Shown here one piece after another: positions 30,663 through 34,846 of a DNA stretch of 36,101 nt. A program made the translations under genes and the position numbers. This DNA is from a bacterium (GTDB lineage Bacteria; Patescibacteriota; Patescibacteriia; SG8-24). The notes under the pieces were generated by a model. It made no database searches, was not told the origin of the DNA, and saw nothing but the letters and a program-made list of their open reading frames with translations. Position 1 is the first letter of the stretch. Each line of letters begins with the position of its first letter. The stretch spans positions 1 through 36,101 of the forward strand of contig JAHFIW010000003.1 in NCBI GenBank assembly GCA_023246195.1, given 5' to 3'.

Positions 30663-30712
30663 CACGCTGTCGAACGGTGAAGGCGAAACCTCCGGCGTGG
30701 CGCCTTGCCCCG

Positions 30713-30749
30713 TTGACAAAATGCCCAATCGTGCCAAGCTGGGCATAAT
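30713..30749 (+). promoter_or_regulatory. Candidate regulated promoter of the paralogue pair
   Basis: A perfect TTGACA (30713-30718) and a CATAAT (30744-30749) are 25 bp apart, too far for a standard promoter. The inverted repeat ATGCCCA-N12-TGGGCAT (30721-30727, 30740-30746) fills the gap and could be an operator. Confidence 0.4.
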
Positions 30750-30792
30750 CGTTCTTTGCCTGTCCAAAAGGCACTACAAATGGAGAAGTACA

Positions 30793-31455
30793 ATGAAAAC
30801 GCACGTTAGCGGATCTATCGCCATACTGGAGGGTCCCAAGTTCGACTTCCGCAGGGTCGTTGCCGCACATGAATCGGTGCTCGACACGATTCTCGAGAAT
30901 TCCGGCCCCGTGAAGATCGCGGTGGACATGTCCAAGGGTCGCAACCGCATCGACTGGCCGGTTCCCGGCAAAAGGATTGCCATGCAGTTATGGGACGGTC
31001 TCAAGAATCTGCATGATGCCGACTCTCGGTCGCTCATCGTGCTCGGTCAGGACATCACCGTGCAGGTGCGACTGCTCGGCATTACGTGGGTCATTCAGGA
31101 TGCCGAGACGGGAGCGCTGAAGCTGCACGACGGCAGCGACGTAGCGCGCATCAATCCCGCACCGGTCATCAGCGTGCTTGGTCCGTGGGACGAAGCACGC
31201 CAGGTGTTCCGCCTGCTGTCCGGGGCGCGAGTGGATCGCATTGCGGACCTGTGCAACGGGCCGCTGGCGCATCTCGGGCTGAAGTTCGAGCGTTTGAGCG
31301 TCTCGACCCATCAAACCAGGAAGTCCGACCTCACCGACTACGTGCGGATCCATTTCCCGCACGACAGCCGGTATGGCGCCGGGCGGGGTCTCATCACCGT
31401 TCGTTGCGTCTCGTCGGACGGACGCGAACCGGATCCAACCAGCGTGGAGAACTGA
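30793..31455 (+). CDS. Hypothetical protein A of a tandem paralogue pair, 220 aa
   Basis: GGAG 8 nt upstream supports the start at 30793 (MKTHVSGSIAILEG). Shared features with the next gene include KFDFRRVVAAHESVLDT, IDWPVPGK, TWVIQDAETGALKLHDG, and a C-terminal FPHDSRYGAG with VRCVSSDG. It has two or three cysteines and no signal peptide or membrane segment. No family recognised. Its stop is 1 nt before the ATG of the second paralogue, so they are translated from one mRNA. Confidence 0.85.
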   Translation: MKTHVSGSIAILEGPKFDFRRVVAAHESVLDTILENSGPVKIAVDMSKGRNRIDWPVPGKRIAMQLWDGLKNLHDADSRSLIVLGQDITVQVRLLGITWVIQDAETGALKLHDGSDVARINPAPVISVLGPWDEARQVFRLLSGARVDRIADLCNGPLAHLGLKFERLSVSTHQTRKSDLTDYVRIHFPHDSRYGAGRGLITVRCVSSDGREPDPTSVEN

Positions 31456-31456
31456 G

Positions 31457-32125
31457 ATGCTCTTTGCAAAAAAGGCAGCGCCGCCGGTCATCGGCGGCGC
31501 TACGCCGATCTTCGGTAAAAAGTTCGACCTCGTACGCGTACTCTTCGCCTACGAACAGCTGTTCGATACGCTGACCGCCAAGTTCGGCAACGGCCGATCC
31601 AGGGTCTCTGCCCGATCGCCCGGCCTCGTCGACGGCGTCGACTGGCCGTATCCCGGAAAGGCCGGAGCCGTCGCGGCTTGGAAGGGGTGGTCCTGCGGTT
31701 TCGATGCCGTTGGAGAAGAAGCCGCTCACCAGGTCGGTCCCGTGAACGCCAAGGCCTACGTGCTTGCCAAGGGCTGGACCGTCTACGATCCCGTCAAAGG
31801 AACGCACACCTTGCATGACGGCAGGCCGCTCAAGGCCCTCGACACTGCTCCGGTCGTGGAAATCTACGGACGAAGCAGAGGCGAAGATGCATGCGGCATG
31901 AACGAGGTCCTTGCCGAAAAAGTCCGAGGCGTCATCGTCAGCGACCTTGCCAAGTTCGGATTCACCTACACTACCTCCTCGTTCTCTCGTTCCGATAACG
32001 GCGTCGAAATCGTCGGCATGATCTCATTCCCGCACTCCATCTACGGAGCGGGGGAGGATTGGCTCCGAGTGCGATGCGTCGGGCTGGACGGGAGCGAAGT
32101 ACGATCGGCGTTAGGCGGGAATTAG
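31457..32125 (+). CDS. Hypothetical protein B of a tandem paralogue pair, 222 aa
   Basis: GTGGAG upstream gives a Shine-Dalgarno 8 nt before the ATG at 31457. It aligns along its length with the previous gene: KFDLVRVLFAYEQLFDT, VDWPYPGK, GWTVYDPVKGTHTLHDGRP and FPHSIYGAG with VRCVGLDG. By eye perhaps a quarter to a third of residues are shared, so the duplication is old. It has a short N-terminal Ala/Pro-rich lead. Soluble, cytoplasmic, function unknown. The pair may form a heterodimer. A terminator follows. Confidence 0.85.
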   Translation: MLFAKKAAPPVIGGATPIFGKKFDLVRVLFAYEQLFDTLTAKFGNGRSRVSARSPGLVDGVDWPYPGKAGAVAAWKGWSCGFDAVGEEAAHQVGPVNAKAYVLAKGWTVYDPVKGTHTLHDGRPLKALDTAPVVEIYGRSRGEDACGMNEVLAEKVRGVIVSDLAKFGFTYTTSSFSRSDNGVEIVGMISFPHSIYGAGEDWLRVRCVGLDGSEVRSALGGN

Positions 32126-32135
32126 GTTCGGTGTT

Positions 32136-32163
32136 GACCTCCCGGTAATGGGGGGTCTTTTTT
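32136..32163 (+). terminator. Rho-independent terminator of the paralogue pair
   Basis: An 8-bp stem (GACCTCCC at 32136-32143 with 32150-32157, one G-T pair) and six T. Confidence 0.85.
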
Positions 32164-32169
32164 ATTGCC

Positions 32170-32198
32170 TTGACGCGCTACCGTACGTACGTTACTTT
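32170..32198 (+). promoter_or_regulatory. Promoter of the NrtR-type gene with a palindrome in the spacer
   Basis: TTGACG at 32170-32175, 17 bp, TACTTT at 32193-32198. The spacer contains the perfect palindrome CGTACGTACG at 32182-32191, well placed for an operator. A second site, CACTAAGTG at 32211-32219, lies just before the start codon. Confidence 0.55.
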
Positions 32199-32223: not shown

Positions 32224-32904
32224 ATGTCCTCACCGAAGAACGGGCACCCCTCATCGCAGGATATCAAGGTCGCCGTAGACGCGGCTATTTTTACCGTGCG
32301 GGACGGCGAATTGCGGGTGCTGGTCGTTCAGATGAAGAAGGCGCCTTTTGCAAGGCGCTGGGCCTTGCCGGGCGGACTCATCGGCGACCGTGAGACTTCG
32401 GAGTCCGCAGTACGTCGCGTACTTAAGGCCGAGACGGGCGTGGCTGACGTGTATGTGGAACAGCTCGGCACGTTCGACAATCCGGAGCGTGATCCGTTTG
32501 GTCGCGTGGTGAGCGTGGCGTATGTTGCCCTGATGTCTTCTGCGGATGTCGCGCTCAAGACCTCGTCAAAGTACGCGGACGTGCGCTGGGCCGCTTTGGA
32601 CGGGCTGAAGGCGTTGGCATATGACCATTCGGGGATTCTTAAGACGGCGGCGGCGCGGGTGCGCGAGCGGTTGGGATATTCCAACGTTGCTTGGAGCTTG
32701 TTGCCGAAGACGTTCACTTTGGCCGGTCTTCAGGAGGTGTACGAGGCCATTCTCGGGGAGAAGATGGATAAGCGGAATTTTCGCAAGAAAATCATGGCCG
32801 CGAGGCTGGTGGTTTCCGCGGGCAAGGTTTTGGTTGGCGGAGCGCACCGGCCGGCGGAGCTGTTCAAGTTCAAGACGCGAAACGTCGGGTTGACGTCACG
32901 GTGA
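32224..32904 (+). CDS. nrtR: NrtR-type transcriptional regulator of NAD metabolism (degenerate Nudix + winged helix)
   Basis: NrtR proteins bind ADP-ribose with a Nudix domain and DNA with a C-terminal winged helix, and control NAD genes. The 226-aa protein has the Nudix box at 51-73 (GLIGDRETSESAVRRVLKAE): of the GX5EX7REUXEEXGU signature the two glutamates at Val66 and Ala69 are lost, which argues for sensing rather than hydrolysis. The C-terminal LLPKTFTLAGLQEVYEAILG and DKRNFRKKIMAARLV match the NrtR winged helix closely, and HRPAELFKF the end. The next genes are a NadD-type enzyme and a PRPP synthase, both known NrtR targets elsewhere. No Shine-Dalgarno. Confidence 0.88.
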   Translation: MSSPKNGHPSSQDIKVAVDAAIFTVRDGELRVLVVQMKKAPFARRWALPGGLIGDRETSESAVRRVLKAETGVADVYVEQLGTFDNPERDPFGRVVSVAYVALMSSADVALKTSSKYADVRWAALDGLKALAYDHSGILKTAAARVRERLGYSNVAWSLLPKTFTLAGLQEVYEAILGEKMDKRNFRKKIMAARLVVSAGKVLVGGAHRPAELFKFKTRNVGLTSR

Positions 32905-32918: not shown

Positions 32919-33017
32919 CAGCGGTTCTCCATGCGATGACAGTTCCGTGGAGGACGGGGCTCTTTTTCATTCGCGAGCGCGGCGCCGATTCCAGGCATCG
33001 AGACGGGCTCGTGGTCC

Positions 33018-33686
33018 ATGGACATCTCATTCGGAAACATCCAACAAATCGAGGTGGTCTTGTCCAAACACATTGCCGTCTATGGCGGCAGCTTCAATCC
33101 GCCGGGCAGTCATCACCGTGCCGTCGTGGAGCGGGTGATGCGCCAGAGCTGCAGGTTGCGCATCGACGAGATGGCGGTGGTTCCTTGCGGGCCTCGGCCC
33201 GACAAGGCCGCGATCAACGACGTCGCGCCCGTGCATCGCGCCGTCATGTGCGACCTGACCTTTCGGGGAATGCCGAACGTGCGCGTGGACCTGTTCGATC
33301 TCGAGAGCAGCATCTTCACTCGGCATCATCAGCTGCAGGAACGTTACGCTGCCGACGGGTCACAGGTGTGGCACGTGGTCGGTGCGGACTTGCTCAAGGG
33401 CGGTGCCGGCAGCGGTTCGCCGATCCAAAAAAAATGGGCCCACGGCGATGAACTGTGGCAATACTGCAATTTCATCGTGGTGCATCGCCAGGGGTTTCCT
33501 CTGGACGATGCGGACCTCCCGCCTCACTGCGAGGTGGTTGCGATAAGGGACAGTTTCGGAGCGGATCTGGTTTCGGGGTCTAGTTCGGAATTACGGCGGA
33601 GGATCTCTGGTCATCAGCCGTACGAAGGACTGGTGGTGCCGGAGGTGCATGACCACATCGAGCGGTACGGCTTATATCGCGAGTGA
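33018..33686 (+). CDS. nadD: NadD-type nicotinate-mononucleotide adenylyltransferase
   Basis: NadD transfers AMP from ATP to nicotinate mononucleotide in NAD synthesis. The 222-aa protein has the nucleotidylyltransferase opening VYGGSFNPPGSHH (21-33), VWHVVGADLLKGG, and the C-terminal SSSELRRRI, followed by LVVPEVHDHIERYGLY (family ISSTxIR). The usual HxGH of the first motif reads GSHH, so the first His is lost while the last is kept. The start at 33018 lacks a Shine-Dalgarno; GTG 33054 or TTG 33060 would sit closer to the conserved strand. The NrtR and Prs neighbours support an NAD role. Confidence 0.82.
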   Translation: MDISFGNIQQIEVVLSKHIAVYGGSFNPPGSHHRAVVERVMRQSCRLRIDEMAVVPCGPRPDKAAINDVAPVHRAVMCDLTFRGMPNVRVDLFDLESSIFTRHHQLQERYAADGSQVWHVVGADLLKGGAGSGSPIQKKWAHGDELWQYCNFIVVHRQGFPLDDADLPPHCEVVAIRDSFGADLVSGSSSELRRRISGHQPYEGLVVPEVHDHIERYGLYRE

Positions 33687-33856: not shown

Positions 33857-34795
33857 ATGGAATCGGGAGCCATCTTGTTTCACTGTCCGCAGATGACGGG
33901 TCTTGCGCGGCGCATCTGCGCCATCGAGCCCCGCATCGATTTGGGCCATATTTCGTGGAAGCGCTTCGATGACGGTTTTCCGAACATCTACATCGAGAAG
34001 CAGCGGCAGATCCGCCGCGCCAACGTCGCTTTCCTCGCGTCGTTCGATACGATGGGCGACATCTTCGAGCAGCTGTCGGCCATCATGGCGCTCACGCGCT
34101 GCGGCACGCAGCTGTTCAAGATCATCTTGCCGTATTTTCCGACCGGCACGATGGAGCGGGTGGATGATGAAGGCCAAGTGGCTACCGCAAAGACGCTGGC
34201 GCGATTCATGTCCTGCACGCCGATGTGCGGACAAGGTCCCGCCGAGATCGTCCTCTACGACGTGCATACGTTGCAGCAGCGATTTTACTTCGGCGACAAC
34301 GTCGTGCCGCGCCTTAAGAGCGGAACGAAGTACCTGAAGCGCGAGCTGGCGAAACTCACGGACGTGGCCATCGTTTTTCCCGATTTCGGCGCCAAGAAGC
34401 GCTTCGGGAAGATGTTCGCGGATTTTCCGCAGATCGTCTGCGAGAAGATACGGAATGGCGATGAGCGGACGGTGACCATCGCCGAGGGCAACCCCGGCGG
34501 TCGGCATTGCGTCATCGTCGATGACATCATCAAGTCGGGCGCGACGCTCATCAAGTGCAAGGATGCGCTTTTGGCGGCAGGGGCAGGATCGGTCAGCACG
34601 TACGCGACCCATGCGAGCTGTCCGCAAAATTCCTGGCGTCAGTTCATCGACGCGGGTTTCTCCAACGTCTGGATCTCGGACTCCTGTCCGCTCACGGTCG
34701 AGTCGGTGCGCGACCGTGAGCCGTTCCGCATCCTTTCGCTGGACGAGTCCATCGCCCGCGTCATCGTCGACGAGGATGAGCGGTCGGCGACTTGA
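33857..34795 (+). CDS. prs: Ribose-phosphate pyrophosphokinase, plant class II-like
   Basis: Prs makes PRPP from ribose-5-phosphate and ATP; PRPP feeds nucleotide and NAD synthesis. AGGAG at about 33846-33850 fixes the start. The 312-aa protein has the PRPP-binding loop VIVDDIIKSGAT (219-230). Its closest match from memory is the plant PRS3/PRS4 class rather than bacterial Prs: ANVAFLASF.....IFEQLS (56-73), LPYFPTGTMER.DDEGQVATA (91-111), DVHTLQQRFYFGD (135-147) and a C-terminal WISDSCPLTV with the DREPF segment. Plant class II enzymes are reported to be phosphate-independent. It closes the NrtR-NadD locus, consistent with NAD salvage. Confidence 0.9.
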   Translation: MESGAILFHCPQMTGLARRICAIEPRIDLGHISWKRFDDGFPNIYIEKQRQIRRANVAFLASFDTMGDIFEQLSAIMALTRCGTQLFKIILPYFPTGTMERVDDEGQVATAKTLARFMSCTPMCGQGPAEIVLYDVHTLQQRFYFGDNVVPRLKSGTKYLKRELAKLTDVAIVFPDFGAKKRFGKMFADFPQIVCEKIRNGDERTVTIAEGNPGGRHCVIVDDIIKSGATLIKCKDALLAAGAGSVSTYATHASCPQNSWRQFIDAGFSNVWISDSCPLTVESVRDREPFRILSLDESIARVIVDEDERSAT

Positions 34796-34820: not shown

Positions 34821-34846
34821 GCCGGTCCCGTCATGGGCCGGCTTTT
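34821..34846 (+). terminator. Rho-independent terminator of prs
   Basis: GCCGGTCC / GGGCCGGC stem (one G-T pair) with a 6-nt loop, then TTTTC. Confidence 0.8.

Follow-up and report, generated by a model that had tools for sequence, protein, structure and literature searches.

The window analysed here, a stretch of 36,101 nucleotides from contig JAHFIW010000003.1 of a Patescibacteriota genome (assembly GCA_023246195.1), encodes at positions 33857-34795 (+) a class II PRPP synthase of 312 amino acids. No other PRPP synthase was found in its own CPR genome, which is 98% complete, and the gene stands last in the order nrtR-nadD-prs, beside genes of NAD metabolism. We consider it fairly probable that the enzyme is active and that prs is transcribed from an NrtR-controlled nrtR-nadD-prs unit, coupling the supply of PRPP to the demand for NAD. 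Class II enzymes of bacteria are not new in themselves; the repeated placement of class II prs among NAD-salvage genes in CPR bacteria seems to be the new part.

The gene is a true open reading frame with an ATG start, and a purine-rich stretch of the ribosome-binding-site type, GGTAGAGGAG, lies immediately 5' of the start codon. All 4 motifs that the first-pass annotation had reported, LPYFPTGTMER, DEGQVATA, HTLQQRFYFGD, and SDSCPLTV, are found in its translation. Pfam places the protein in the PRPP-synthase family, with PF13793 and PF00156 both above cut-off. Its score against the NCBIfam model TIGR01251 is 109 bits, slightly below the cut-off of 113; since 5 of the 11 other class II loci score above this cut-off and 6 below, while class I proteins reach about 395 bits, the cut-off is not decisive for class II membership. 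An AlphaFold2 model of the protein (pLDDT 88) aligns with E. coli PRPP synthase along the entire chain, with a TM-score of 0.83 at 26% identity.

Aligning the query with the class I Prs of E. coli and of Desulfonatronum, and with class II relatives, separates what is common to the family from what is particular to each class. All of the catalytic motifs are present: the D135-V-H137 motif (34259-34267), the catalytic flexible loop C195-EKIR (34439-34453) with K197 and R199, and the ribose-5-phosphate/PRPP loop VDDIIKSGATL (34517-34549) with D222, D223, and T230, all on the plus strand. D135, H137, K197, and R199 are invariant across classes I and II, and so are the 3 residues named in the last loop across the alignment. 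The query thus has its fold and catalytic motifs in common with the class I enzyme of E. coli, whereas 3 features are kept by class I only: the ARQDR loop, the glutamate of the FLAG region, and the C-terminal NEESISAMF tail. In the FLAG region of the query, DGFPNI (residues 39-44; 33971-33988, +), F41 stands in place of the class I glutamate, as aligned with SDGEVS of E. coli. The regulatory flexible loop reads PYFPTGTMER (residues 92-101; 34130-34159, +); a TMER-type sequence, a mark of class II in PMC13252144, stands where class I has ARQDR, and T98 is the equivalent of human R96. The tail is absent. The first-pass annotation had described a departure from the E. coli type, and this is borne out by identities of 28% to E. 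coli Prs vs 42-53% to members of the bacterial class II group.

A June 2026 preprint that analysed more than 35,000 PRPP synthases provides the frame for assigning the class (PMC13252144). It marks class II by a TTMER loop and the lack of the FLAG glutamate, and it describes a sister class, class IV, with an STMER loop and a largely retained FLAG glutamate, linked to CPR. With GTMER and no FLAG glutamate, the query fits class II; it has the TMER-type loop, the missing glutamate, the conserved catalytic residues, and the position outside class I in common with the class II enzymes of the preprint, and differs from the published motif in the first letter of the loop. It differs further in that its genome yielded no second PRPP synthase and in that NAD genes adjoin it. 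In the preprint, about half of the class II species carry class I as well.

Phylogeny gives the same placement. The query is one of 12 class II-like sequences that form a clade with support of 100/100, separated from class I by a long stem; the 11 other members come from CPR genomes and two Desulfovibrionales, and the label "class II" is given to the clade by the motifs described in PMC13252144 and not by the reference sequences of that study. Constraining the query to group with class I was rejected (AU p = 6.4e-8). The corresponding test in which the other 11 class II rows were grouped without the query gave p = 0.17 and is uninformative, because the query as sister of the 11 rows is still permitted. 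The first-pass annotation had likened the gene to plant class II, named a phylogeny of Prs proteins as the check, and named a place among class I bacterial Prs as the outcome against it. Tree and AU test rule out an ordinary class I Prs, and together with the diagnostic residues they support the class II assignment. A phage origin was set aside as well: the phage matches listed are 23-30% identical, the class II profile gave 0 matches on the viral contigs scanned, and 2 phage Prs lie outside the clade.

Likeness to the plant class II enzymes PRS3 and PRS4 (spinach, Arabidopsis) may extend to the loop and C-terminal motifs; the query, however, is bacterial and linked to NAD by its gene context. 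An unverified plant sequence lands in the clade of the query and serves as a lead only. The first-pass annotation drew attention to such an enzyme in a bacterium, and the surprise in this is outdated: the preprint describes bacterial class II and argues for its transfer from bacteria to early eukaryotes (PMC13252144).

The reading of the query as a class IV enzyme draws on its CPR-type host, the group to which the preprint ties that class, and on the TMER loop common to both; we regard it as very unlikely. The FLAG glutamate is missing in the query and in its whole clade, and the loop is GTMER rather than STMER, class IV being taken here as it is described. The clade also holds Thermodesulfobacteriota members, and it was against the profile of a group like Thermodesulfobacteriota that the ancestral eukaryotic class II enzyme scored highest (PMC13252144). 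Possibly related to class IV is a very divergent CPR PRPP synthase (L044, genome G178), which lies on a long branch, carries a YSTMDR loop, and lacks the FLAG glutamate.

Of 380 genomes drawn from the same phylum, 4 gave a class II match above 300 bits, with the next best match at 133 bits; in the phylum to which the Desulfonatronum genome belongs, that genome alone, out of 297, gave one. The bacterial spread of class II is under-sampled in the DNA-pattern scan of genome contigs, because the scan used only the PTGT-type loop and the DxEGQV motif. CPR genomes with a class II gene usually had no other full-length PRPP synthase that we could find; another one was present in one CPR genome and in both Desulfovibrionales. 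A second, divergent PRPP synthase-like protein (L108:7346-8389, genome G426) is encoded in a CPR genome that has the class II gene as well.

In the window, the nrtR-like gene (32224-32904, +) encodes a Nudix domain with a degenerate Nudix box, RVLKAETGV, and a winged helix. PF21906 (79 bits) and PF00293 (57 bits) are both above cut-off and nadD is the next gene, the combination by which we recognise NrtR; the score against the NCBIfam equivalog NF050029 is 146 bits, below the cut-off of 400. The nadD-like gene (33018-33686, +) encodes a nicotinate mononucleotide adenylyltransferase of 222 amino acids, with PF01467 above cut-off and TIGR00482 at 70 bits, below 112. Terminator-like hairpins flank the 3 genes, one 5' of nrtR (32136-32157, +) and one 26 bp past the prs stop codon (34821-34842, +), and their positions suggest a single transcription unit. 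A further terminator-like site lies between nrtR and nadD (32941-32961), and with 113 and 170 bp the intergenic gaps are wider than one expects of a tight operon.

A repeat search returned a 16-bp palindrome, TACCGTACGTACGTTA, at 32179-32194, which may tentatively be put forward as an NrtR operator; going by the palindrome count of the window, one would fall in this gap by chance in about 6% of cases, and no second copy, with up to 2 mismatches allowed, occurs in the genome. NrtR of Mycobacterium smegmatis is an auto-repressor that is released by ADP-ribose and whose degenerate Nudix box is inactive (PMC6800001). By analogy, the NrtR-like protein of the window would repress its own unit until ADP-ribose releases it. 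Just 5' of the unit, 2 adjacent uncharacterised proteins (30697-31455 and 31373-32125, +) are 29.5% identical to each other and have no Pfam match. Long antisense open reading frames at 7-13 kb of the window were dismissed, as they lie opposite ordinary plus-strand genes.

The NAD setting recurs at other class II loci. At 5/12 class II genes vs 0/57 class I-like control genes, PncB, NadE, or NadD is encoded no more than 1.5 kb away (Fisher p = 7e-5); in the CPR subset the counts are 5/10 vs 0/32 (p = 3e-4). These p-values are indicative, as the class II loci themselves supplied the sequences for the neighbour HMMs, and the loci are not fully independent; the HMMs also detect PncB, NadE, and NadD of E. 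coli. Clusters of the form pncB-prs-nadE occur at four other CPR loci: L017 (PncA-like, NadD-NADK fusion, PncB, class II Prs, NadE), L020 (PncB, Prs, NadE), L106 (PncA-like, NadD-NADK, ADP-ribosylglycohydrolase, PncB, Prs, NadE), and L107 (NadD, PncB, Prs, NadE). The NadD-like protein of the window shares 41% identity with the NadD part of the NadD-NADK fusions. In these fusions, found in two CPR NAD clusters (L106:1147-2529 and L017:2198-3592), NadD-like and NAD kinase domains are joined in one protein. The ADP-ribosylglycohydrolase (L106:2526-3665; PF03747, 169 bits) lies inside its NAD-salvage cluster, a position that suggests the recovery of ADP-ribose for NAD. A literature search, and a term search of the main text of PMC13252144, gave no mention of an NAD-salvage neighbourhood of CPR class II genes.

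In the genome of the window, the link to NAD itself consists in nrtR and nadD being the neighbours of prs. No NAPRTase was found in this genome, and no QPRTase above cut-off. Only the C-terminal half of nadE is present, at the very start of contig C4 (positions 2-577; L029); the remainder was not found, which marks an assembly break. Part of the NAD genes may therefore lie in an assembly gap. The missing step may be in such a gap, or the lineage may enter NAD synthesis elsewhere. The other type I PRTases found are only PurF-like and ComF-like proteins, and as the sole PRPP synthase found in a genome with a PurF-like protein, the class II enzyme must also serve purine synthesis. The proposal of the first-pass annotation that the gene supplies PRPP for NAD salvage is thus upheld as a trend across CPR loci, and is incomplete for this genome, where the phosphoribosyltransferases for it were not found and PurF is served as well.

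These observations bear on whether the gene is a housekeeping PRPP synthase, class II by descent, whose NAD neighbours in this genome are coincidental and whose PRPP goes mainly to purines. Such a plain housekeeping role is possible, if somewhat unlikely. The single PRPP synthase found, the PurF-like gene, and the NAPRTase and QPRTase that were not found all fit it, as do the 7/12 class II loci that lack an NAD gene in the flanking 1.5 kb, among them the Desulfovibrionales genes, which adjoin unrelated genes. Coincidence accords less well with NAD genes near 5 class II loci and none of the class I-like ones, and with a locus in which nadD adjoins prs and an NrtR-type NAD regulator stands next to nadD.

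The presence of an ADP-ribose-linked regulator family at the locus, and of an ADP-ribosylglycohydrolase in one related cluster, brings up another chemistry. Adps, which functionally parallels PRPP synthase, acts in the phage NARP1 pathway, which rebuilds NAD and is found also in some bacteria (PMC12774641); an Adps-like query would convert ADPR to ADPR-pyrophosphate instead of acting on ribose-5-phosphate. On the indirect grounds of gene context, we regard this as very unlikely. The class II genes are accompanied by PncB, NadD, and NadE, as suits PRPP chemistry, and not by Namat/NAMPT: no Namat (NAMPT-like, PF04095) was found in the genome of the window, and the relatives of the query pair with PncB. 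Phage Prs-NAMPT modules and the Adps-Namat pair of NARP1 do resemble the CPR loci in that a Prs-family gene lies near a nicotinamide phosphoribosyltransferase gene. The CPR clusters, however, have PncB, NadD, and NadE, and both of the phage Prs whose genes neighbour NAMPT are placed outside the class II clade.

With a class II PRPP synthase in an NAD-linked unit as the preferred reading, the enzyme is predicted to form PRPP and NMP from ribose-5-phosphate and NTP, transferring the diphosphoryl group of the NTP to ribose-5-phosphate by analogy with characterised PRPP synthases. In related CPR bacteria, class II Prs would feed PncB within a fuller Preiss-Handler cluster (PncA-like, PncB, NadD or NadD-NADK, NadE), which sometimes also includes a Nudix-like protein and an ADP-ribosylglycohydrolase.

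Class II is defined by enzymes that are independent of phosphate, are not inhibited by ADP, and accept broad diphosphoryl donors (PMC3380012, PMC13252144), the lack of phosphate and ADP regulation having been measured for plant class II; for bacterial enzymes assigned to class II on their sequence, we found no biochemistry in the literature. In the query, the loss of two adenine-contacting residues suggests a loose choice of nucleotide, which PMC13252144 argues for class II. The missing class I tail and basic loop residues make an enzyme without regulation by phosphate or ADP plausible, and are consistent with the escape from normal control that the first-pass annotation had envisaged. Class II behaviour has been claimed for a bacterium before, under the question "bacterial class II PRS?", for the PRS of M. 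tuberculosis (PMC3380012); that enzyme has a class I-like sequence and is ADP-inhibited, whereas the sequence of the query places it in class II.

A wider proposal is speculative, and we hold it to be unlikely: that the class II Prs of CPR bacteria is a dedicated, feedback-free source of PRPP for NAD within a Preiss-Handler cassette, one that can rebuild NAD from its breakdown products with Nudix-like or ADP-ribosyl hydrolases in some loci, and that the class II enzymes of eukaryotes, plants included, descend from such an NAD-salvage gene. The loci described here give bacterial class II PRPP synthases a functional setting that we did not find described, namely the salvage of NAD in bacteria that are reduced and probably depend on a host. 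This setting suggests a concrete reason for an unregulated source of PRPP, and an ancestral role that the plant enzymes may have had.
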